This document shows, in pieces, positions 7,124 through 61,136 of a stretch of 64,000 nucleotides of DNA (the first letter of the stretch is position 1; each line of letters begins with the position of its first letter). The stretch is from NCBI RefSeq assembly GCF_034059295.1, contig NZ_CP139141.1:3579001-3643000 (forward strand), written 5' to 3'. Under the pieces are notes generated by a model. It had not been told where the DNA came from, ran no database searches, and saw only the letters and a list, made by a program, of their open reading frames with translations. This stretch comes from Pseudomonas sp. HR96. GTDB lineage: Bacteria > Pseudomonadota > Gammaproteobacteria > Pseudomonadales > Pseudomonadaceae. A program made the translations under genes and the position numbers.

Positions 7124-7768
7124 TCAGGCGCTGGCGTCCACCATGCCATGTCGCACCGCCAACAGGGTCAATTCCACGTCGCTGGTGACACCCAACTTTT
7201 CAAAGATGCGGTAGCGGTAGGTATTCACGGTCTTGGGGGACAGGCACAGCTTGTCGGAGATGGTCTGGACTTTCTGGCAGCCGACGATCATCAGGGCGAT
7301 CTGGATTTCGCGCTCGGAGAGCAGATCGAACGGCGATTGGGTAGTTTGCGGCTGGAACGACTTGAGCGCCAGCTGCTGAGCGATCTGCGGGCTGATATAG
7401 CGCTGCCCGGCGAACACCAGGCGGATCGCCTGAACCATTTCCTCGAGGCCGGCGCCCTTGGTCAGGTAACCCGCCGCGCCGGCTTGCAGCAGGCGCGTGG
7501 GAAACGGATCTTCCTCGCACACGGTAACCGCGACCACCTTGATGTCCGGATAGCTGAGCTGCAGCTTGCGAGTGGCTTCAAGCCCGCCGATGCCAGGCAT
7601 CTTGACGTCCATGAGGATCACGTCGGGTTTGAGTTCGCGGGCGAAATGCAGAGCCTGTTCGCCGGATTCGGCCTGCCCTATCACCTGCAGGCCGTCGATG
7701 TCGGCCAACATACGCGTGATGCCCGTGCGAACCAGATCATGATCGTCGACTACCAGTACCCTGATCAA
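7124..7768 (-). CDS. gacA: Response regulator GacA
   Basis: The global regulator of the GacS/GacA system. It activates small RNAs that titrate RsmA/RsmE, and so controls secondary metabolism, exoproducts and biofilm. It has 214 residues: a receiver domain with Asp9/Asp10 and phospho-acceptor Asp54 (ILMDVKMPG), and a C-terminal LuxR-type helix-turn-helix ([12 protein letters not shown]...[17 protein letters not shown]). The start codon is TTG 7768, as in many pseudomonad gacA genes, with GAGGTG about 8 nt upstream. It is the first gene of the gacA-uvrC-pgsA run. Confidence 0.98.
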
Positions 7769-27180: not shown

Positions 27181-28446
27181 ATGAGCGTAAACGACACCGT
27201 CACCGTGATCCCGCCGGGCCGCCCCCTGCACGGCCAGGTCAGCCCACCGGGCTCCAAGTCGATCACCAACCGCGCGCTGCTGCTCGCGGCCCTGGCCAAG
27301 GGCACCAGCCGCCTGGGTGGCGTGCTCAAGAGCGATGACACTCGGCACATGTCCAATGCCCTGCGCCAGATGGGCGTGACGGTCGAGGAGCCGGACGACA
27401 CCACCTTCGTGGTCACCAGCAGCGGCCGCTTGCAGGCCCCCGAGGGGCCGCTGTTTCTCGGCAACGCCGGCACCGCCGTGCGCTTTCTCACGGCGGCGGT
27501 GACCACGGTAGACGGCAGCGTGACCCTGGACGGCGACGAGTACATGCGCAAGCGCCCGATCGGCCCGCTGGTCGACGCGCTGCGCGCCGCTGGCCTTGAG
27601 GTCAGCAGTGCCACCGGCTGCCCACCGGTGCAGGTCAAGGGCAGCGGCACCCTCGCCGCCACCCGCCTGGAGATCGACGGCGGGCTGTCCAGCCAGTACG
27701 TCTCTGCGCTGTTGATGCTCGCCCCCTGCGCCGCGCAGCCGGTGGAAGTGGCCTTGATCGGCCAGGACATTGGCGCCCGCGGCTACGTCGACCTGACCCT
27801 GGCCTGCATGCGCGCCTTTGGCGCCCAGGTCACCGAGCTGGACGCCAACACTTGGCGAGTCGCCCCGACCGGCTATGTGGCCAGCGATTACCAGGTCGAG
27901 CCGGACGCCTCCGCCGCCACCTACCTGTGGGCTGCCGAGGCGCTGAGCCAGGGCCGCATCGACCTGGGCGTGGCCGCCGACGCCTTCACCCAGCCCGACG
28001 CCCGCGCGCAAGGCTTCATTGCCCAGTTCCCGCAGATGCCGGCGGTGATCAATGGCTCGCAGATGCAGGACGCCATTCCCACCCTGGCCGTGCTGGCGGC
28101 GTTCAACCGCACCCCGGTGCGCTTCGTCGACCTGGCCAACCTGCGGGTCAAGGAATGCGACCGCGTGGCGGCCTTGCACGATGGCCTCAATGCCATCCGC
28201 CCAGGCCTGGCCACGGTCGAAGGCGACGATCTGCTGGTCGCCGCAGACCCGGCGCTGGCCGGCAGCCACAGCGACTGCTCGATCAACACCCACGCCGACC
28301 ACCGCATCGCCATGTGCTTTGCACTGGCCGGCCTGAAGGTCAGCGGCGTGCGCATCCAGGACCCGCTGTGCGTCGGCAAGACCTACCCGGGCTACTGGAA
28401 AGCGCTGGAATCGCTGGGCGTCGAATTGCAGTGGGTCTCGGCCTGA
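27181..28446 (+). CDS. aroA: 3-phosphoshikimate 1-carboxyvinyltransferase (EPSP synthase)
   Basis: The sixth shikimate-pathway enzyme, joining PEP to shikimate 3-phosphate. It has 421 residues in two inverse alpha/beta domains. Motifs: PPGSKSITNRALLLAALA with Lys26, LFLGNAGTAVRFLTAA, GLSSQYVSALLML, LRVKECDR and HADHRIAMCFAL. ATG 27181 (MSVNDTVTVIPPG) follows GAAGAG; the longer frame is not conserved-looking. In pseudomonads a bifunctional prephenate dehydrogenase/AroA is the usual housekeeping form, so this stand-alone gene is probably a second copy. The residue after the conserved Arg101 is Phe, where E. coli has Pro101. Confidence 0.95.
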   Translation: MSVNDTVTVIPPGRPLHGQVSPPGSKSITNRALLLAALAKGTSRLGGVLKSDDTRHMSNALRQMGVTVEEPDDTTFVVTSSGRLQAPEGPLFLGNAGTAVRFLTAAVTTVDGSVTLDGDEYMRKRPIGPLVDALRAAGLEVSSATGCPPVQVKGSGTLAATRLEIDGGLSSQYVSALLMLAPCAAQPVEVALIGQDIGARGYVDLTLACMRAFGAQVTELDANTWRVAPTGYVASDYQVEPDASAATYLWAAEALSQGRIDLGVAADAFTQPDARAQGFIAQFPQMPAVINGSQMQDAIPTLAVLAAFNRTPVRFVDLANLRVKECDRVAALHDGLNAIRPGLATVEGDDLLVAADPALAGSHSDCSINTHADHRIAMCFALAGLKVSGVRIQDPLCVGKTYPGYWKALESLGVELQWVSA

Positions 28447-28463
28447 AGCCCTGCCGACAGGCT

Positions 28464-28718
28464 GGTTTGATCTTCGGCCTGGCGGAATGTCCGCCGCCTT
28501 GAGACCGGCCTGTCGGCCTCTCGGGGTCTGCGACCCCTCCCACATGAGACCACGCCCGACGTGGGAGGGGGCAACGCCCCCGAGAGGCCACAAGGCCGGT
28601 TTGATCTTCGGGCGCCTGGCGGAACGTCCGCCGCCTTGAGACCGGCCTGTCGGCCTCTCGGGGTCTGCGACCCCTCCCACATGAGACCACGCCCGACGTG
28701 GGAGGGGGCAACGCCCCC
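28464..28718. repeat. Two tandem copies of a REP-containing unit
   Basis: A unit of about 137 nt occurs twice (starts near 28464 and 28598). It runs from GGTTTGATCTTCG through TTGAGACCGGCC and GGCCTCTCGGGG to GTGGGAGGGGGCAACGCCCC. Each copy holds inverted arms (CTCCCAC / GTGGGAG and GGCCTCTCGGGG / CCCCGAGAGGCC) able to fold as REP hairpins. The same motifs recur at 51876 and in the array at 61179. Confidence 0.85.
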
Positions 28719-28802
28719 ATCTCACGGCCGATACGCAACACCAGGCCATTCGATGCCCCGCTGCGACAATTGGTAGCAGACTAAGTATTTCCCCTCTGGC
28801 AC

Positions 28803-28826
28803 CGCTATATGTTTTTCTATATAGCG
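28803..28826. promoter_or_regulatory. ModE-box-like palindrome before the metal-uptake operon
   Basis: CGCTATAT-N8-ATATAGCG, perfect 8-bp arms, lies 20 nt before the first gene of the permease/ATPase/receptor/binding-protein operon. It has the form of the molybdate-responsive ModE site (CG-x-TATAT arms around a short spacer) and not that of a Fur box. It would overlap the promoter, as expected for repression. Identification is from remembered consensus, with no ModE gene in the window. Confidence 0.6.
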
Positions 28827-28845
28827 TAAATTCCAGAGCCTCCCA

Positions 28846-29862
28846 ATGCCTGTGCCAGACCCATCGCGCCACTTCACGGCCTGGCTGACCGCCGCCCTGG
28901 CCCTGCTCCTGTTCGCCGCCGTCGCATCCCTGACCCTGGGCCGCTACCCCATCGGCCTCGGCGAGCTGTGGCGTTTCCTCGGCCATGACCTCAGCCCGCA
29001 ACGCCAGCAATTGCTGCACAGCGTCATCCTTGACACACGCCTGCCACGGGTGATCGGCGCGGTGCTGGTGGGCGCCGGGCTGTCGGCGTCCGGCGCCGCC
29101 TACCAGGCTGTGTTCCGCAACCCGCTGGTCTCGCCGGGCCTGCTCGGCGTGCTCAGCGGCTGCGCGCTGGGCGCCTCGCTGGCGATCGTGCTGGGCCTGC
29201 AGGGGCTATGGATCTCGCTGCTGGCCTGCGTCACCGGGCTGCTGGCAGTGGGCGTCGGGGTCGCGGTGGCGGCGATGTTCACCACGCCCTCGATCCTCAT
29301 GCTGGTGCTCGGCGGCATCGTCAGCAACGCGCTGTTCACCGCCCTGCTGTCCATTGTGCAATACCTGGCGGACCCGCAGGACCAACTGCCGACCATCGTC
29401 TACTGGATGCTGGGCAGCCTCAGCGCGGTCGACCCCCATGCCCTGGGCTGGACCGCTCCGGTGCTGATCGTGGCGATCATCGCCCTGTGCCTGCTGGGCC
29501 GGGTGATCGATGCACTGTCGCTGAGTGATGACGAAGCCCGCAGTCTGGGCGTGCCGGTGTCGGTGATCCGCTATGGGGTGATTGCCCTGGCTACGCTGAT
29601 CAGCGCCCTGACCGTCAGCATCGCCGGCATGGTGGGCTGGGTCGGCCTGCTGGTGCCGCACCTGGCGCGCTTTCTGGTGGGCCCCAGCAGCGCCCGCCTG
29701 CTGCCGATCAGCGCCTGCCTGGGCGGCTGCTTCCTGCTGGCGGCCGACGGCCTGGCGCGCAGTTTCAGCGCCGGCGAAATCCCCTTGGGCATCATCACCG
29801 AACTGCTCGGTGCCCTGGCCTTCGTGCTGGTGTTGAACCGCGTGCGCCGGGGCTGGCTATGA
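28846..29862 (+). CDS. FecCD/BtuC-type ABC permease
   Basis: 338 residues with about ten helices, a type II importer permease for metal chelates or oxyanions. Typical stretches: LPRVIGAVLVGAGLSASGAAYQAVFRNPLVSPGLLGV near residues 66-102, DDEARSLGVPV facing the ATPase, and MVGWVGLLVPHLARFLVG. ATG 28846 is first in a run of four genes. The stop overlaps the ATPase start (ATGA). Relatives carry iron siderophores, cobalamin or, in MolBC, molybdate. The upstream ModE-like box makes molybdate or tungstate a real candidate (inference). Confidence 0.9.
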   Translation: MPVPDPSRHFTAWLTAALALLLFAAVASLTLGRYPIGLGELWRFLGHDLSPQRQQLLHSVILDTRLPRVIGAVLVGAGLSASGAAYQAVFRNPLVSPGLLGVLSGCALGASLAIVLGLQGLWISLLACVTGLLAVGVGVAVAAMFTTPSILMLVLGGIVSNALFTALLSIVQYLADPQDQLPTIVYWMLGSLSAVDPHALGWTAPVLIVAIIALCLLGRVIDALSLSDDEARSLGVPVSVIRYGVIALATLISALTVSIAGMVGWVGLLVPHLARFLVGPSSARLLPISACLGGCFLLAADGLARSFSAGEIPLGIITELLGALAFVLVLNRVRRGWL

Positions 29863-30626
29863 GCGCTCTGCTGACCGCCGAGCACCTTAGCTACCGCATC
29901 GAAGGGCGCTCGGTGCTGGCGGGCATCGACCTGCAGGTCCACTGCGGCGACTGCATCACCCTGCTCGGCGCCAATGGCGCCGGCAAGAGCACCCTGCTGC
30001 GCCTGCTGCTTGGCCTGCTCAAGCCCCATGGCGGCCAGGTGCGGCTCAACGGCCAGGCGCTGGCGACGGTCAAGCGGCGCGGCATCGCCCGGCAGGTCGC
30101 CTATGTGCCCCAGAGCCATGTGCCGAGTTTTCCCTACCGAGTCCGCGAGGTGGTCAGCCAAGGGCGCTTGCCCAGCACCGGCCTGGGCCGCGCACCGAAT
30201 GCCCGGGATCACGTCGTCGTCGATCAGGCGCTGGCCGAATTGGGCATCGAGCACCTGGCGCAGCGCTTGTACACCGAATTGTCCGGCGGTGAGCGGCAGT
30301 TGGCGCTGATCGCCCGCGCCCTGGTGCAGCAGGCGCGGCTGATCATTCTCGACGAACCGGTGGCGGGCCTGGACTACGGCCACCAGCAGCGTCTGCTCGA
30401 ACACCTGCAGCGCCTGGCGCGCGCCGGGTTGAGCATCCTCAGCAGCAGCCACCACCCCGAGCACGCCCTGGCCTGGGCCAACCGCGCCTGGGTGCTGGAG
30501 CACGGCCGGCTGATCGCCGACGGCACCCCCCACGCGGTGATCGACGCCCAGTTGATCGCCCGGCTGTACCAGCGCCAGGTGCGTCAGGTCGACGTGCCGC
30601 CCCATCGTTTTTTCGTCCCCTTGTGA
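29859..30626 (+). CDS. FecE/BtuD-type ABC ATPase
   Basis: 255 residues with Walker A GANGAGKSTLL (about 38-48), Q-loop AYVPQSHVP, signature LSGGERQL and Walker B LIILDEPVAGLD, followed by the switch His in SSHHPEHAL. It powers the permease encoded just upstream. The start ATG is inside the permease stop (ATGA), and the stop overlaps a GTG start for the receptor. This is the cytoplasmic motor of the four-gene uptake system. Confidence 0.93.
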   Translation: MSALLTAEHLSYRIEGRSVLAGIDLQVHCGDCITLLGANGAGKSTLLRLLLGLLKPHGGQVRLNGQALATVKRRGIARQVAYVPQSHVPSFPYRVREVVSQGRLPSTGLGRAPNARDHVVVDQALAELGIEHLAQRLYTELSGGERQLALIARALVQQARLIILDEPVAGLDYGHQQRLLEHLQRLARAGLSILSSSHHPEHALAWANRAWVLEHGRLIADGTPHAVIDAQLIARLYQRQVRQVDVPPHRFFVPL

Positions 30627-32764
30627 GCCTGACCACCATGCCCTCCACCGCTTTGCGTTTTGCCTTGTCACCGCTGTGCCTCGCCGTGTCACTAGGCGTC
30701 GCCCACGCCGCCGACAGCGACTCGATCCAGCTGGCGCCCGTCGACGTCACCGCCAGCGCAACCCCTGACGACGACACCCAGCTGGCGAAAAACAAGGCCG
30801 CGAGCCTCGGCCCGCTGGGCGAGCGCAAGGTGCAGGACACGCCCTACTCGATCAACGTGGTCAATGCCCAGCTGATCGACAACCAGCAGTACAAAAGCTT
30901 CAAGGACATCCTGCGCCTGATGCCGTCGGTACAAGGCGACGGCGCCCGGCCGCAGAGCCGTGGCATGCAGGGCAGCGTGGTGCAGAATTCACGGCTGGAC
31001 GGCCTCAACGTGGTCTCGACCACCGACTACCCTGCCGAGCAGTTCTCTGCCATCGAAGTACTCAATGGCCTGGCCGGTGCGCTGTACGGCCCTGCGAACC
31101 CGGCCGGCACCTTCAATTTCATCTCCAAGCGGCCCACCGACGAGACCCGCAACCGGGTGACGGTGGGCGTCGGCACCGGCCTGACCTGGCTCAAGGAAGC
31201 CGACCTGTCCGGCCCCTTCGACCCGGACGGGCGCATCAAGTACCGCCTCGACCTGCTCGACGAACAGGGCCAGGGCTACAACCCGGGCAGCCAGCTGCGT
31301 CGCCAGCTGGTCAGCCTGGCGCTGGACTTCCAGCTCAGCGACCAGGACCTGCTGCAGACCAACTTCAGCTACTACAACTTCCTCGACAAGGGCCTGCCCG
31401 GCAAATTCGCCCTGGCCAGCAACGCCAGTTTCCCCCACGCGCTGGACCCCACCCGCAGCAACCTGGGGCAGAACTACGCTGGCGACAACAACACCACCGA
31501 GACCGCCAGCGCGCACTGGAAACATGATTTCAACGGCAACTGGAAGCTGGACGTCGGCGGCCTGCGGCAGATTGCCGACCGCCAAAGCACCGGCGTCACC
31601 AATACCCTGAGCACCACCCCCGGCCAGTACACCAGCTCGGTGTCGTCGGCCACCGCCAGCCGTTTCACCATCAACAGCTACCTGGTCAGCCTCAACGGCA
31701 GCGAATGGACCGGCCCGGTGCGCCACGACCTGACCCTGGGCCTGAGCGGCTTCAACTGGCAGAACTACAACCCGGTCGCTGGCGCCACCACCACCCTGGG
31801 CACTGCCAACCTCAGCGATCCGCAGGACTTCGCCGAACCGAACTATCCGGACTTCACCGACCGCTACCAGTCGGCGGTGGCTACCCAGCGCGCGCTGATC
31901 TTCGGCGACACCCTGACCTTCACCCCGCAGTGGAGCCTGATGCTCACCGGCAGCCAGAGCCGGCTGACCAGTCGCAACTACGCCAAGACCCTGAACGTCA
32001 CCTCCAGCTCCGAGGACAGTGGCCTGAGCAGCGCCACCAGCCTGCTGTACAAGCCGGTGGAGGACCTGACCCTCTACGTCACCTACGCCGACAGCCTGCA
32101 ACAGGGCGACACAGCGCCGACCGGTACCAGCAACGCCAACGACATCCTGGCCCCCTACCGCAGCAAGGAGTGGGAGACCGGGGCGAAGTGGGCACTGGAC
32201 CGTGTCAACCTGTCGCTGGCCGCGTTCCAGATCAAACGCCCCTATGCCTATACCCAGGGCACCGTCTACGCCAACGGCGGCGAGCAACGCAACCGTGGCG
32301 TCGAGTTCATGGCCGACGGCAAGGCCAGCGACACCGTGCAGCTGTTCGGCGGCCTGACCTGGCTGGACCCCAAACTGCTCCACACCGGCACCCCGAGCAC
32401 CGAGGACACGCGCATCGTCGGCCTGGCCAAATACACCGCCAACCTGCTCACCGTGGTGCAGATACCCCAGGTGCAGGGCCTGTCGCTCAACCTCAACAGC
32501 CGCTATGTGGGCCGCCGCCCCACCGACAACACCGACAGCAGCTGGGTCTCGGGCTACAGCACCTTCGACGCCGGCGCCGCCTTGACCACCACCTTGTGGC
32601 ACCGCAACACCACCTACCGGCTGGAGGTCGAGAACCTGACCGATCGGCGCTACTGGACCAACGTCGTGCCCGGCGGCCTCAACGGCTACTCCGGGGCCGG
32701 CAATGCCAGTGCCTCGCTGGGCACCCCGCGCGAAGTCCAGGCCTCGATCCAGGTGGACCTGTGA
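30623..32764 (+). CDS. TonB-dependent outer-membrane receptor, siderophore-receptor type
   Basis: 713 residues. A signal peptide (to about AHA-ADSDS) is followed by a plug domain (DTPYSINVVNAQLIDNQQYKSFKDILRLMPSVQ, then IEVLNGLAGALYGPANPAGTFNFISKRP), a 22-strand barrel, and a terminal strand ending VQASIQVDL. There is no N-terminal signalling domain, so no sigma/anti-sigma control is expected. GTG 30623 overlaps the ATPase stop (GTGA); ATG 30638 is the alternative. Being inside the ABC operon ties it to the same substrate. Homology suggests a siderophore, but the operator suggests molybdenum or tungsten control. Confidence 0.9.
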   Translation: MSLTTMPSTALRFALSPLCLAVSLGVAHAADSDSIQLAPVDVTASATPDDDTQLAKNKAASLGPLGERKVQDTPYSINVVNAQLIDNQQYKSFKDILRLMPSVQGDGARPQSRGMQGSVVQNSRLDGLNVVSTTDYPAEQFSAIEVLNGLAGALYGPANPAGTFNFISKRPTDETRNRVTVGVGTGLTWLKEADLSGPFDPDGRIKYRLDLLDEQGQGYNPGSQLRRQLVSLALDFQLSDQDLLQTNFSYYNFLDKGLPGKFALASNASFPHALDPTRSNLGQNYAGDNNTTETASAHWKHDFNGNWKLDVGGLRQIADRQSTGVTNTLSTTPGQYTSSVSSATASRFTINSYLVSLNGSEWTGPVRHDLTLGLSGFNWQNYNPVAGATTTLGTANLSDPQDFAEPNYPDFTDRYQSAVATQRALIFGDTLTFTPQWSLMLTGSQSRLTSRNYAKTLNVTSSSEDSGLSSATSLLYKPVEDLTLYVTYADSLQQGDTAPTGTSNANDILAPYRSKEWETGAKWALDRVNLSLAAFQIKRPYAYTQGTVYANGGEQRNRGVEFMADGKASDTVQLFGGLTWLDPKLLHTGTPSTEDTRIVGLAKYTANLLTVVQIPQVQGLSLNLNSRYVGRRPTDNTDSSWVSGYSTFDAGAALTTTLWHRNTTYRLEVENLTDRRYWTNVVPGGLNGYSGAGNASASLGTPREVQASIQVDL

Positions 32765-33780
32765 GCGCCCGCGCCTGGCTGAGCGCTGCCGCGCTGGCCT
32801 TGTGCAGCGCCGGTGCCCTGGCCGACGCCGGCCACCTTGTGCGCGATGACGCCGGCCAGCAGGTCAGCGTGCCGGCCAGCCCCCAGCACATCGCCGACGC
32901 CTGGTACGCGCACCATGCGTTGCTGATGACCCTGGGCGCCGGCGACCGTATCGCCGCCACCGTCAACCACGAGGCTGGCCAGCCCTGGATGTTCCTCGTG
33001 CAGCCGTCGCTGCGCCAGGCACTCAGTGTGCCGGGCAACGCCTTCGGCGCCGAAAGCCTGCTGGCGGCAAAGGTCGACCTGGCCTTCGTCAGCACCGGCG
33101 ACCGCAACGCCCAGGCCTACCAGCAGGCGGGCATCGCCGTGGTGCATGTCGGCTTCAAGGACATCCCCGGGCTGCAGCACACCCTGCTGCTGACCGCCCA
33201 GGCTCTGGGCAGCGACAGCGCCCGGCAGCGCGCCCAGGCCTACAACGCCTACCTCGACAAAGCACTGGCCGAGGTTTCCACGCGCACAGCCAGCCTCACC
33301 GCGCAGCAACGCCCGCGCGTGCTGCACATCGCCTCGCTCAATCCTCTGAAGGTCGACGGCGATGGCACCCTGATCGATGACTGGATCAAACTGGTCGGCG
33401 GGCGCAACGCCGCCGACGGCCTGCACGGCAACCTGCAGACGGTGTCCGCCGAACAACTGCTGGGCTGGCAACCCGATGTGCTGATCCTCGCCGCCAACGC
33501 TGGCAACCTCGCCGATTCGCCCGCCAGCGCGCTGCTCGGGGAACTGGACGCGGTGCAGCACGGCCGGGTACTGCGCAACCCCGCCGGGGTGTTCCCCTGG
33601 GACCGCTACGGCACCGAAATCGCCCTGCAACTGCCGTGGGCCGCACAGCAATTGCACCCGGAGTTGTTCAAGGACGTCGACCTGAATGCCCTGACCATCG
33701 ATTTCTACCGACGCTTTTTCGACTACCCGCTGTCGACGGCGCAGGCGGCGCGTATTATCGGAGGTTTGCTTCCCCAGTAG
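32761..33780 (+). CDS. Periplasmic binding protein, FepB/TroA-like
   Basis: 339 residues starting at GTG 32761 within the receptor stop (GTGA). The signal peptide ends near ALA-DAGHL. It has a PF01497-type fold: LVRDDAGQQVSVPASPQHIADAWYAHHALLMTLGAGDRIAATV, VDLAFVSTGDRNAQAY, and the terminal VDLNALTIDFYRRFFDYPLS. There is no lipobox, so it is a soluble receptor. It completes a binding-protein/permease/ATPase/receptor set. The C-terminal FYRRFF...LS pattern recurs in nickel, cobalt and molybdate-type members, but the ligand is not assigned. Confidence 0.88.
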   Translation: MSARAWLSAAALALCSAGALADAGHLVRDDAGQQVSVPASPQHIADAWYAHHALLMTLGAGDRIAATVNHEAGQPWMFLVQPSLRQALSVPGNAFGAESLLAAKVDLAFVSTGDRNAQAYQQAGIAVVHVGFKDIPGLQHTLLLTAQALGSDSARQRAQAYNAYLDKALAEVSTRTASLTAQQRPRVLHIASLNPLKVDGDGTLIDDWIKLVGGRNAADGLHGNLQTVSAEQLLGWQPDVLILAANAGNLADSPASALLGELDAVQHGRVLRNPAGVFPWDRYGTEIALQLPWAAQQLHPELFKDVDLNALTIDFYRRFFDYPLSTAQAARIIGGLLPQ

Positions 33781-33816: not shown

Positions 33817-33837
33817 TTGCTATAAAATCTATAGCAA
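33817..33837. promoter_or_regulatory. Palindromic operator of the toxin-antitoxin pair
   Basis: TTGCTATA-N5-TATAGCAA, perfect 8-bp arms, lies 33 nt before the antitoxin start. It contains TATA elements that could be the -10 region. Antitoxins usually bind such sites to repress their own operon, so this is a plausible autoregulatory site. Confidence 0.55.
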
Positions 33838-33870
33838 TATTGACTGTCGATCTGCGCTGCGGAGGATCCC

Positions 33871-34143
33871 ATGGCCCATGTTGAAAAGCTGGACACGGTC
33901 TTGTTTCGGCTTCGCCCCCAAGACACCCCTACAGGCATCAGTACCGAAACCTTCGGTTTGCTGATGGCCCAAACCGGAATGAACAAGACCGAGGTGATCC
34001 ACTATGCCTTGCGCCAGCTAGCAGACCGTTATCTGCCGAAGTATGAGCTCGACGACGGCCCTCTGACCCCGGAACAGATGGACGCAATAAAAGCTGCAAG
34101 TCCAGCCCTGCCAGACAGCCGACTGACGCGATCGCTGTTTTGA
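33871..34143 (+). CDS. Antitoxin-like small protein
   Basis: 90 residues with GGAGGA before ATG 33871. The N-terminal half (MAHVEKLDTVLFRLRPQDTPTGISTETFGLLMAQTGMNKTEVIHYALRQLADRYLP) looks like a strand followed by two helices, compatible with a ribbon-helix-helix fold. The C-terminal part (LTPEQMDAIKAASPALPDSRLTRSLF) would be the toxin-binding tail. It overlaps the next gene at TTGA. The antitoxin role is inferred from position, size and the upstream palindrome; I do not know the family name. Confidence 0.65.
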   Translation: MAHVEKLDTVLFRLRPQDTPTGISTETFGLLMAQTGMNKTEVIHYALRQLADRYLPKYELDDGPLTPEQMDAIKAASPALPDSRLTRSLF

Positions 34144-34538
34144 TCTCGCCACGCCCATTCACTCCCCTGCCTGCACCGGGCGACATCGTCTGGTGCAAGT
34201 TTCCCGAGAGGCTTGGCACCCCTGGCCCGAAGAGTCGGCCGGGGCTGGTCATCGGCGTGTTCGATGAGGAGCGCAAGGTTCGGGTATGTTATGGGACCAG
34301 CCAGAAAACCGACCGGATCTACCCCGGCGAGTTTGTGCTCGATCCCGATGATGATGGATTCCCCTTGAGCGGACTGGGCGCACGCACTAAATTCGATCTG
34401 AACCACACCTTCGATCTGGCGTTCGATACGGACTGGTTTGCGATGCATTCAAGCCTGGTTCCCGCGATACCGTTGCCGAAGATGGGTTCATTGCATTCCA
34501 GCTACATGCAAGCCATCAAAAAAGCGCAAAGCCGTTAA
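34140..34538 (+). CDS. PemK/MazF-like toxin
   Basis: 132 residues from TTG 34140, overlapping the antitoxin stop. The N-terminal pattern PLPAPGDIVWCKFPERLGTPGPKSRPGLVIGVFDEERKVRVCYGTS resembles the SH3-like barrel of PemK/MazF endoribonucleases (PGDIVW..., K-x-RPxLVI). The C-terminal half (FDLAFDTDWFAMHSSLVPAIPLPKMGSLHSSYMQAI) is longer and less typical. With the small gene upstream it forms a probable type II toxin-antitoxin module. RNA cleavage is predicted, not shown. Confidence 0.65.
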   Translation: MISPRPFTPLPAPGDIVWCKFPERLGTPGPKSRPGLVIGVFDEERKVRVCYGTSQKTDRIYPGEFVLDPDDDGFPLSGLGARTKFDLNHTFDLAFDTDWFAMHSSLVPAIPLPKMGSLHSSYMQAIKKAQSR

Positions 34539-57226: not shown

Positions 57227-57859
57227 GTGTCGAAAAAACCCGAAGACCCGTCCACACTGATTCCCAATATCGCCCTGTCGCGCCGTTCGATGCTGCAAGC
57301 CATCGGTGTCGGCGGCACTGCCGCTGCCCTGGGCGGCGGAATGGCCAGCGCCGCCCTGGCGGCCAGCGCGGCCGAGGCGCCTGTCGAGGTCGAACCCGGC
57401 GCGCAATCGGTGCGCCTGAAGATCAACGGCAAGCCCATGACCCTGCAGGTCGACCCGCGCACCACCCTGCTCGATGCCCTGCGCGAGCGGGTGCAGCTGA
57501 CCGGCACCAAGAAAGGCTGCGACCATGGCCAGTGCGGCGCCTGCACCGTGCACGTCAATGGCCGACGGGTCAATTCCTGCCTGAGTTTCGCGTTGATGCA
57601 CGAAGGCGACGAGATCACCACCATCGAGGGCCTTGGCAACCCGGCCAACCTGCACCCGATGCAGGCCGCCTTCGTCGAGCATGACGCCTACCAATGCGGC
57701 TATTGCACCTCCGGGCAGATCATGTCCGCCGTGGCCCTGGCCAAGGAACCTTGCGGCGGCAGCGACGCCGAGGTCAAGGAGGCCATGAGCGGCAATATCT
57801 GCCGCTGCGGTGCCTACTCGAACATCCTTGCCGCCATCCAGCAGACCCGCAAAGCCTGA
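57227..57859 (+). CDS. paoA: Periplasmic aldehyde oxidoreductase, [2Fe-2S] subunit (PaoA type)
   Basis: 210 residues. A twin-arginine signal (SRRSMLQAIG, about residues 18-27) exports the folded complex. Two [2Fe-2S] clusters are formed by Cys98, Cys103, Cys106 and Cys118, and by Cys157, Cys160, Cys192 and Cys194. GTG 57227 is preferred because GGAG lies 9 nt upstream; ATG 57212 would hide that site in the gene. First of three genes in the order iron-sulfur, FAD, molybdenum subunit, as in E. coli paoABC, which oxidises aromatic and other aldehydes. Confidence 0.9.
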   Translation: MSKKPEDPSTLIPNIALSRRSMLQAIGVGGTAAALGGGMASAALAASAAEAPVEVEPGAQSVRLKINGKPMTLQVDPRTTLLDALRERVQLTGTKKGCDHGQCGACTVHVNGRRVNSCLSFALMHEGDEITTIEGLGNPANLHPMQAAFVEHDAYQCGYCTSGQIMSAVALAKEPCGGSDAEVKEAMSGNICRCGAYSNILAAIQQTRKA

Positions 57860-57881
57860 CGGCACGCCCTGGAGCCAGCTC

Positions 57882-58886
57882 ATGCAGACCTTTACCTTCA
57901 ACCGCGCCAGCAATGTCGAACAGGCCGCCCGTTTCGCCGCCGCCGCCAACACCGCCCAGCAGGGTGCCGACGTGCGCTTCATCGCCGGCGGCACCACCCT
58001 TACCGACCTGATGAAACTGGGGGTCGAAGCCCCGGCCCGCCTGGTGGACATCAATCACCTGCCGCTGGCCGACATTGGCCCTGCGGCCGACGGCGGCCTG
58101 AAAGTCGGCGCCCTGGTGCGCAACAGCGACATGGCCCACAACGCGCGCCTGGCGCAGGACTACCCAGTGCTGTCGCAGGCGCTGCTGTCCGGCGCCTCGG
58201 CGCAGTTGCGCAACATGGCCACCACGGGCGGCAACCTGCTGCAGCGCACCCGCTGCACCTACTTTCGCGACAATGTCAGTGCCTGCAACAAGCGCCAACC
58301 AGGTTCCGGCTGCGCGGCCCTGGAAGGTGTCCATCGCACCTTGGCGATTCTCGGCACCAGCGAGCACTGCATCGCCACCAATCCATCGGACATGAACGTC
58401 GCCCTCACCGCGCTGGACGCCACTGTGCACATCCATGGCAAGAACGGGGCGCGGGCAGTACCGATCACCCAGTTCTACCTGCTGCCGGGCGACACCCCGG
58501 ACAAAGAGAACGTGCTGCAGCCCGGTGACCTGATCACCCACATCACCCTGCCGCCACCACTGCCCGGCAGTCGTTCGGCCTACCTCAAGCTGCGCGATCG
58601 CGCTTCCTATGAATTCGCCCTGGCTTCGGCCGCCGTGGTGTTGCAGATCGACAATGGCCAGATCCGAGCCGCACGTGTGGCGCTCGGAGGCGTCGGCACC
58701 AAGCCCTGGCGCTCGGTGGAGGCCGAACAGGTGCTGACCGGCGCGCCGGCCACCCCGGCCACCTGGAAAGCCGCGGCGCAAGCGGCGCTGCAACACGCCC
58801 AGCCGCATCCCGAGAACGCCTTCAAGGTCGAACTGGCCAAGCGTTGCCTGACCCACGCGTTGACCTCGGTCGCGCAACTCGCCTGA
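57882..58886 (+). CDS. paoB: Aldehyde oxidoreductase, FAD subunit (PaoB type)
   Basis: 334 residues with a PCMH-type FAD fold: FIAGGTTLTDLMKLGVEAPARLVDINHL and ATTGGNLLQRTRCTYFRD. An inserted Cys-rich segment (Cys125, Cys135, CNKRQPGSGC with Cys144, and a Cys near 164) matches the extra [4Fe-4S] cluster known for PaoB. ATG 57882 has GGAG ahead and is 22 nt after paoA. It passes electrons from the molybdenum site outward. Confidence 0.92.
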   Translation: MQTFTFNRASNVEQAARFAAAANTAQQGADVRFIAGGTTLTDLMKLGVEAPARLVDINHLPLADIGPAADGGLKVGALVRNSDMAHNARLAQDYPVLSQALLSGASAQLRNMATTGGNLLQRTRCTYFRDNVSACNKRQPGSGCAALEGVHRTLAILGTSEHCIATNPSDMNVALTALDATVHIHGKNGARAVPITQFYLLPGDTPDKENVLQPGDLITHITLPPPLPGSRSAYLKLRDRASYEFALASAAVVLQIDNGQIRAARVALGGVGTKPWRSVEAEQVLTGAPATPATWKAAAQAALQHAQPHPENAFKVELAKRCLTHALTSVAQLA

Positions 58887-58907: not shown

Positions 58908-61136
58908 ATGGCGCAATCCACAGCAGCCCAGTCCAAGCCGACCCCCGACAATGTCATCGGTTTCGGTTACCCGCGCATCGACGGCCCGAAAAAGGTCAGC
59001 GGCGCGGCGCTCTACACCTCCGATCACAACTTTCCCAACCTGGCCTATGCGGTACCGGTCACTGCGACCATTGCCACAGGGCACATCACTGCGCTGGACG
59101 CCAGCCAGGCCGAGCGCATTCCCGGTGTGGTCGCCGTGTACCATGCGGGCAACTTCGACAAGCAGCTGTTCCGCAAGAGCGGCGGCGGCAAGACCGATGA
59201 AGGCCGCCCGCCCCTGAGCGATGATCGCATCACCTACTACGGCCAGTATGTCGCCGTGGTGGTGGCCAACACCTATGAACAGGCGCTGGCCGGCGCCGCT
59301 GCAGTGAAGGTCAGTTACGCCGCCGACAAGCCCAACGTCGACCTGCTGCTCAGCGCCGAGGAGCCGCAGAAAGTCGACACCGAGCGCGGAGACGTCGACA
59401 AGGCGTTCGCCGCCGCGCGGGTCAAGGTCGACCAGACCTACACCACCCCGCCCCACGCGCATAATCCGATCGAGCTGCACGCCACGGTGGCGCTGTGGAA
59501 CGGCCGTGAGTTCACCCTCTACGAGACCTCGCAGGCGATCATGAACCATCGGCTGGTCAGCGCGCAGATGCTTGGCGTGGCCCCGGAGCAGGTGCGGGTC
59601 ATCACCGAGTTTCTCGGTTCCGGCTTTGGCGGCAAGCTGTGGCCCTGGACCCACTCGCTGCTGGCCGCCGCCAGCGCCCGCGAGCTCAACCGCCCGGTCA
59701 AGCTGGTGGTCGACCGGCAGATGATGTTCCAGACCGTCGGCCACCGCACCAACACCCAGCAGCGTATCCGCCTGGGCAGCGACGCTGGCGGCAAGCTCAG
59801 CTGCGTGCAACAGGATTACCTGTTCCACAACGCGCGGCTGGACACCTACAAGGAAAACTGCGGCGAGGCCACGGGCTTTCTCTACAGCACACCGAACCTG
59901 CGCGCGGCCTGGTCCTTCGCCCGCCGCGACATTGCCCCGCCGACTTCAATGCGCGGGCCCGGTGCGGTGCCGGGGCTGTATGCGCTGGAATCGGCGATGA
60001 ACGAACTGGCGGTCAGCCTGGACATGGACCCGCTGCAACTGCGCCTGGTCAATCAGCCGGATCACGACGAAAGCACCAACCAGCCGTTTTCTTCACGGCA
60101 CCTGACCGAGTGCCTGAATGCCGGCGCTGCGCGCTTTGGCTGGGCGCGCCGCGACAAGCGTCCTGGCTCGATGCGCAACGAAGCCGGCGATATCGTCGGC
60201 TGGGGGATGGCCTGTTGTTCATGGCAGGCCAAGGCGCTGCCTGCCGAAGCCGCGGTGCAGCTGACCAATGACGGCCGTGCGCGCGTGTCCTCCGGGACCC
60301 AGGACATCGGCACCGGCACCTACACGGTGGTGGCGCAGATGGTTGCGCAGCTGACCGGCCTGCCGCTGGAGCGGATCGATGTGGTGCTTGGCGACAGCAA
60401 CCTGCCGCCGGGGCCGATGTCCGGCGGCTCGATGGCCACCGGCTCCTTGGTGCCTGCGGTACAGCAAGCCACCCGGGCGGCCATGGATCAGGCCGTGCAG
60501 GCCGCCGCCCAGCATCACCCAGCGTTCGCCGGCAAGCAGGCCGATGACCTGCAATTCACGGCCATGCGCATCCACCTCAAAGACTCACCGGCCGACAGCG
60601 GCGTGGCGGTTGGCGACCTGCTGCAAGCGGCGCGGATCAATCACGTCAGCGGCCAGGGCAAGGCCGAGGGCAGCGCCGAGGCGGCGAAAAAGGTCTCGCT
60701 GCATTCCTACGGCGCGCATTTCGTCGAGGTGGTGTGGCAGCCGGAAATGGCCCGCCTGCGGGTCAACCGCGTGGTCACCGTGATCGATGCCGGCAAGGTC
60801 ATCAACGCCCGCACCGGGCGCAACCAGATCGAGGGCGCGATCATCATGGGCGTCGGCATGGCGCTGTTCGAGGCCATCGAGTACGACAGCCGCAGCGGCG
60901 CGCCGGTCAACAGCAACCTGGCCGACTACATCGTCACCACCCACGCCGATGCACCCAGCGTGGACATCACCTTCCTCGATTATCCGGACATGGCGCTGAA
61001 CCCGCTGGGTGCGCGGGGGATCGGCGAAATCGGCCTGGCCGGGGTAGCTGCGGCGATCACCGATGCGGTACGGCATGCCACAGGGGTGACGATTCGCAAG
61101 CTGCCGGTCAGGATCGAGGATTTGCTGGAGGCTTGA
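58908..61136 (+). CDS. paoC: Aldehyde oxidoreductase, molybdenum cofactor subunit (PaoC type)
   Basis: 742 residues of the xanthine oxidase large-subunit family. The Moco-binding loops include GSGFGGKLWPW, MRGPGAVPGLYALESAMNELA and SSGTQDIGTGTYTV. The catalytic Glu lies in GARGIGEIGLAG close to the C-terminus. It hydroxylates aldehydes to acids. RBS GGGAG is upstream of ATG 58908. It is the last gene of the operon. A PaoD-like cofactor-insertion chaperone is not found after it, where a repeat array begins instead. Confidence 0.93.
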   Translation: MAQSTAAQSKPTPDNVIGFGYPRIDGPKKVSGAALYTSDHNFPNLAYAVPVTATIATGHITALDASQAERIPGVVAVYHAGNFDKQLFRKSGGGKTDEGRPPLSDDRITYYGQYVAVVVANTYEQALAGAAAVKVSYAADKPNVDLLLSAEEPQKVDTERGDVDKAFAAARVKVDQTYTTPPHAHNPIELHATVALWNGREFTLYETSQAIMNHRLVSAQMLGVAPEQVRVITEFLGSGFGGKLWPWTHSLLAAASARELNRPVKLVVDRQMMFQTVGHRTNTQQRIRLGSDAGGKLSCVQQDYLFHNARLDTYKENCGEATGFLYSTPNLRAAWSFARRDIAPPTSMRGPGAVPGLYALESAMNELAVSLDMDPLQLRLVNQPDHDESTNQPFSSRHLTECLNAGAARFGWARRDKRPGSMRNEAGDIVGWGMACCSWQAKALPAEAAVQLTNDGRARVSSGTQDIGTGTYTVVAQMVAQLTGLPLERIDVVLGDSNLPPGPMSGGSMATGSLVPAVQQATRAAMDQAVQAAAQHHPAFAGKQADDLQFTAMRIHLKDSPADSGVAVGDLLQAARINHVSGQGKAEGSAEAAKKVSLHSYGAHFVEVVWQPEMARLRVNRVVTVIDAGKVINARTGRNQIEGAIIMGVGMALFEAIEYDSRSGAPVNSNLADYIVTTHADAPSVDITFLDYPDMALNPLGARGIGEIGLAGVAAAITDAVRHATGVTIRKLPVRIEDLLEA

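Follow-up and report, generated by a model that had tools for sequence, protein, structure and literature searches.

A survey of molybdenum (Mo) use in about 5,900 organisms names ModABC, WtpABC and TupABC as importers and allows that further uptake systems may exist; the words TonB and outer membrane are absent from the part of its text that was available (PMC6147048). Molybdate and tungstate are also imported by MolBC-A of Haemophilus influenzae, a type II ATP-binding cassette (ABC) system, and molybdate represses molB 10-fold by way of a factor that is unknown according to the authors (PMC4031551). A review of iron in Azotobacter vinelandii describes catechol siderophores and, in its available sections, names no molybdenum receptor (PMC10669500). 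A search of the open-access literature found no ModE-regulated TonB receptor, although a text search cannot separate ModE from the word "mode". Here we describe an operon of Pseudomonas sp. HR96, located in a stretch of 64,000 nucleotides (the window; C1:3579001-3643000 of the 5.87 Mb genome), that combines a putative ModE box with its own TonB-dependent outer-membrane receptor, a combination that appears to be new relative to the known Mo importers. We estimate a probability of about 0.8 that this operon represents a ModE-repressed, TonB-dependent acquisition system for molybdenum or tungsten (W), in either chemical form. Like morABC of Rhodobacter capsulatus, it would be a second Mo-repressed putative Mo transporter alongside ModABC; however, the morABC products are ModABC-like, for which reason morABC was rejected as a precedent, and the accessible part of the paper does not contain the word TonB (PMC6925177).

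The operon (28846-33780) consists of four genes on the forward strand, each of which overlaps the next by 4 nt: a FecCD-family (type II) ABC permease (28846..29862), an ABC transporter ATPase of the ABC_tran family (29859..30626), a TonB-dependent outer-membrane receptor (30623..32764; TIGR01783) and a periplasmic binding protein (32761..33780; PF01497, Peripla_BP_2) carrying the family signature NPAGVFPWDRYGTE. The same order and overlaps had been read in a preliminary description of the locus, and coordinates and family matches agree with it. The overlap at the receptor follows from the GTG start at 30623, the alternative being the ATG at 30638. A perfect palindrome, CGCTATAT-N8-ATATAGCG (28803..28826, no strand assigned), ends 19 nt upstream of the permease ATG at 28846, a distance previously given as 20 nt. 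It is the sole exact match within the window, and with up to 3 mismatches two matches were found versus 0.01 expected; the second, at 7379, has 3 mismatches. The palindrome by itself is unremarkable, since perfect 8+8 palindromes, whatever their sequence and with spacers of 0-20 allowed, number 118 in the window, and the case therefore rests on the identity of the box and its occurrence elsewhere. Its half-sites presumably match the E. coli-type ModE box; the test used was the presence of an identical box before modA. The box match, its conservation and the copy before modA together led us to predict a ModE-type operator.

Both a modE gene and a further copy of the palindrome, which the preliminary description had proposed to look for, are present in the HR96 genome. 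A single ModE match exceeds the cut-off (108 versus 98.5 bits), the second match being weak and under it (24 bits), and the encoded protein of 254 aa comprises HTH_1 and two TOBE stretches. Exact CGNTATAT-N8-ATATANCG sites occur twice genome-wide, before the operon and 21 nt upstream of the modA ATG of the modABC operon. The window operon thus shares with the proteobacterial ModABC-ModE system both the regulator and the box, which is similarly placed before modA; unlike the window operon, the HR96 modABC genes encode an SBP_bac_11/ModC-TOBE system with no receptor gene seen adjoining them. The absence of a Fur-like 19-mer upstream of the operon was also upheld: within the window, the best match to the Fur consensus was 9/19, compared with a shuffled mean of 9.5, and an iron-regulated siderophore operon was rejected for this reason. 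The architecture of TIGR01783 receptor, PF01497 protein, FecCD permease and ATPase is shared with siderophore systems of the FemA, BauA and FhuA type, but the window operon has a ModE box where a Fur site would be. A scan of 28440-28900 for a sigma-70 promoter and a terminator gave no match.

When one genome per species was searched using an alignment of 24 binding proteins, 112 stretches matched, among which 88 relatives were recognized. The best 80 of the 88 were retained, giving 81 loci with the window; they come from pseudomonads, Azotobacter and Azomonas, from many Enterobacterales, and from two Burkholderiaceae and 13 Acetobacteraceae. A box was called at up to 2 mismatches in 14 positions between -300 and +250 of the first operon gene, the +250 limit allowing for over-long start calls. 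By this measure the box is present in 59 of the 81 loci: 10/14 of the pseudomonad type, 46/50 in Enterobacterales, 1/2 in Burkholderiaceae (one Paraburkholderia), 2/13 in Acetobacteraceae and 0/2 in Azotobacter/Azomonas. The remainder of the 81 loci (1.12 Mb) contains seven such sites, including four at the Citrobacter MolA gene, and the reversed pattern yields 24 sites across all 81 loci. In most pseudomonad loci the box keeps its position about 16-21 nt upstream of the start while the flanks diverge. Conservation in orthologues, a lack of which would have counted against the earlier proposal, therefore holds for most pseudomonad-type and Enterobacterales loci and fails in 22.

Outside the operon, the box also occurs at molybdenum genes. 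In 24 operon genomes (of the 80), 102 sites at 0-1 mismatch were found versus 12 for the reversed pattern (summed from a table), and the box loci read include modA promoters (L098, L099, L102, L104, L105 and L121) and the sequence preceding the gene for a DmsA-like molybdopterin oxidoreductase (L107). ModE was matched at E 1.3e-19 or better in 47 of 48 operon genomes and above the curated cut-off in 36. The exception, Pantoea sp. A4 (L069), has only a generic ModE match and zero genomic sites at 0-1 mismatch; this genome has no receptor match at E 1e-60, shows receptor remnants by eye and retains an open binding-protein frame. We conclude that the box is very probably ModE's. The opposing explanation, that the palindrome is a chance occurrence or the operator of another regulator before an ordinary iron-siderophore system, could draw on the abundance of perfect palindromes in the window and on degenerate or absent boxes in some orthologues; it is highly improbable given the identical box before modA in the same genome, the frequency of the box among the 81 loci and its absence from the sole operon genome without a strong ModE match. 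Two further cases were not counted. One is a genome (G195) in which the binding-protein gene is broken and the ModE frame has 98 aa; it was set aside because the region looks generally decayed, although a 1-mismatch box is still there. The other is a Mop-type TOBE gene in L118, which is some 1 kb away from the pair of boxes of that locus and not behind them.

Several observations weigh against a ModE-controlled Mo or W system or limit what can be drawn from the counts. Among the 22 loci without a box at up to 2 mismatches, the pseudomonad loci L026 and L030 have 3 mismatches and L031 has a degenerate box, only looser palindromes are present in L028 (Azotobacter) and L034 (Azomonas), and 11 of the 13 Acetobacteraceae loci lack the box by script count. 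L069 is among the boxless gamma-proteobacterial loci, L021 starts within the receptor gene, and L082 has a 2-mismatch site beyond the counted stretch, its frame being split. Three Tatumella genomes (L047, L050 and L062) encode ModE and a lone binding protein whose gene lacks an upstream box, and they gave no match to the receptor at E 1e-60, so the receptor can be lost without loss of modE. Presence of modE alone says little, since it was found in 115 of 119 pseudomonad genomes and the binding protein of the operon in 5 of them; co-occurrence with modE was for this reason set aside as main evidence. In the family of an Erwinia (n=149), ModE lies above the cut-off in all nine genomes with a binding-protein match of more than 500 bits, as opposed to 89/149 overall, but this sample includes many genomes under 2.5 Mb. 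Within HR96, the box gives 4 sites versus 2 for the reversed-pattern control at up to 1 mismatch and 5 versus 9 at up to 2, so that beyond the exact matches this genome alone decides little. The closest solved structures to the receptor are the iron-siderophore receptors FemA and BauA, and MolBC-A is, according to the available text, a low-affinity molybdate importer (PMC4031551). Finally, no permease match above 158 bits was found in 16 of 23 genomes searched, including Erwinia, Pantoea, Rouxiella and Chimaeribacter, MolB-like permeases scoring at least 213; the module may therefore use another importer there.

The transport proteins were compared with MolBC-A, to which the preliminary description had related the binding protein and permease. 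The top solved relative of the permease is MolB HI1471 (210 bits; runner-up, 170 bits), and in unrooted trees its clade is sister to MolB and not within it (97/96, or 100/99 without long rows). The binding protein has a MolA-type fold, with MolA as a close fold relative. The proposed relationship is thus sustained, but the window system differs from MolBC-A in having its own TonB receptor in addition, a permease in a separate clade and a binding protein whose conserved motifs are unlike those of MolA, the last a further point against a molybdate-type function. The receptor matches PF07715 and PF00593 above the cut-off, indicating plug and beta-barrel domains, and its structure model has a mean pLDDT (predicted local distance difference test) of 70.5 with a poorly modelled plug.

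On computable grounds (modE, conservation of the box and the lack of a Fur-like site), the earlier proposal of ModE-controlled Mo/W uptake is supported, and a mechanism can be outlined. At low cytoplasmic molybdate, ModE would leave the box near the first start codon, allowing expression of the four genes; ModE with molybdate would occupy the box and repress them. The receptor would use TonB energy to import a scarce Mo species, most likely chelated by an organic ligand, for example as a catecholate complex, and the MolA-like binding protein would pass the metal species to a MolBC-like type II ABC importer acting in parallel to ModABC. A chelate is favoured over bare molybdate because free molybdate, like other oxyanions, crosses porins and because the receptor belongs to the siderophore type, and we place the chelate form taken alone slightly above even odds. 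The MolA fold leaves a free oxyanion open as cargo, in which case the receptor, still regulated by ModE, would serve as a high-affinity route for trace molybdate or tungstate. This variant seems rather unlikely; it agrees with the binding of molybdate and tungstate by MolA, as given in the available part of the paper (PMC4031551), and with the frame lists of 23 loci, in which no siderophore-synthesis genes were noticed by eye (no family scan) except a non-ribosomal peptide synthetase (NRPS) at one Chimaeribacter pair. A ModE-regulated receptor might also carry neither Mo nor W but a cargo required under Mo shortage, namely an iron siderophore, vanadate or some other metallophore, as FemA and BauA are the best solved receptor matches and PF01497 and FecCD proteins are generally known to transport mostly iron complexes or B12. 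Such a cargo is quite improbable in view of the sister position of the permease to MolB, the lack of a Fur-like site and the linkage, seen in Citrobacter and on a Pantoea plasmid, to MolA and WtpA-like proteins.

If Mo or W uptake under ModE is correct, the ModE-controlled TonB receptor would provide an outer-membrane step for organically bound molybdenum and a candidate molybdophore-uptake receptor for Azotobacter-type nitrogen fixers, A. beijerinckii carrying the operon. A second boxed locus of Citrobacter (L161:848-7334; 1 mismatch) encodes a PF01497 binding protein, a FecCD permease, an ATPase, a methyltransferase, ModD (TIGR01334, 440.7 bits) and a TonB receptor, which the window receptor did not match at E 1e-5. 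In E. coli the same gene order is annotated, and in the strain read (NZ_CP026723.1, L166:3501-9975) a perfect box precedes the start of the binding-protein gene by 24 nt. The Citrobacter modD-operon DNA was matched by 777 of 5426 E. coli genomes and the 73-bp promoter stretch by 1847 of 5426; modD is rare, occurring in 3 of 229 class members sampled. Box, binding protein, permease, ATPase and TonB receptor are thus common to both operons, whereas the modD operon adds ModD and a methyltransferase and its receptor is unmatched by the window receptor at E 1e-3. The modD-linked operon is an independent connection of a TonB receptor with a ModE box. Dedicated TonB-dependent outer-membrane routes for Mo chelates (molybdophore receptors), both under ModE, may well have arisen at least twice, in the window family and in the modD-linked operon of E. 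coli and Citrobacter, with the receptor and binding protein of many Enterobacterales working without a MolB-like permease of their own; we lean only slightly towards this view.

In Klebsiella, Raoultella, Kluyvera and Citrobacter (L126, L127, L129 and L146), MolABC adjoining a WtpA-like protein was observed with 2-mismatch ModE boxes, which may explain the molybdate repression of mol genes. Boxes before MolA genes of Enterobacterales, the group to which this comparison applies and which does not include H. influenzae, suggest ModE as the mol repressor and hence as a possible link between molybdate and the expression of mol genes. At L036, L043, L052, L057 and similar Enterobacterales loci, the boxed receptor and binding-protein genes have no adjoining FecCD permease of the window type. 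In Chimaeribacter coloradensis (L037:5-4588), the NRPS (condensation, adenylation, carrier and terminal NAD_binding_4 domains) ends beside the boxed receptor/binding-protein pair; no NRPS was noticed among the frames listed for the C. californicus locus, and partly for that reason the C. coloradensis NRPS was not used as a molybdophore clue. The Acetobacteraceae loci L085-L096 contain mostly boxless binding protein-permease-ATPase operons, several of them preceded, as judged by eye, by a GGATATAG-type stretch; ModE scores there fall short of the cut-off, and its open frames are 119-188 aa long.

Single-mismatch ModE-like boxes at L009:7748-7771 and L009:10192-10215 are situated close to the 5' ends of an M24 peptidase/DsbD-thioredoxin pair and a TetR (TetR_C_3) gene, and the M24 gene of the closest relative, dw_358 (L120), has a perfect box close to its 5' end; we know of no molybdenum link for these genes. 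The window also encodes the molybdenum-cofactor aldehyde oxidoreductase noted earlier (58908-61136; MoCoBD_1, MoCoBD_2 and Ald_Xan_dh_C), with its flavin adenine dinucleotide-binding subunit at 57810-58886. Between the EPSP synthase gene and the operon, a stretch of about 130 bases is present twice in near succession (28450-28720, by eye). Downstream, at 33817-34538, two overlapping small genes, the second PemK-like, follow a TTGCTATA-N5-TATAGCAA palindrome and look like a toxin-antitoxin pair with its own operator, distinct from the ModE box.
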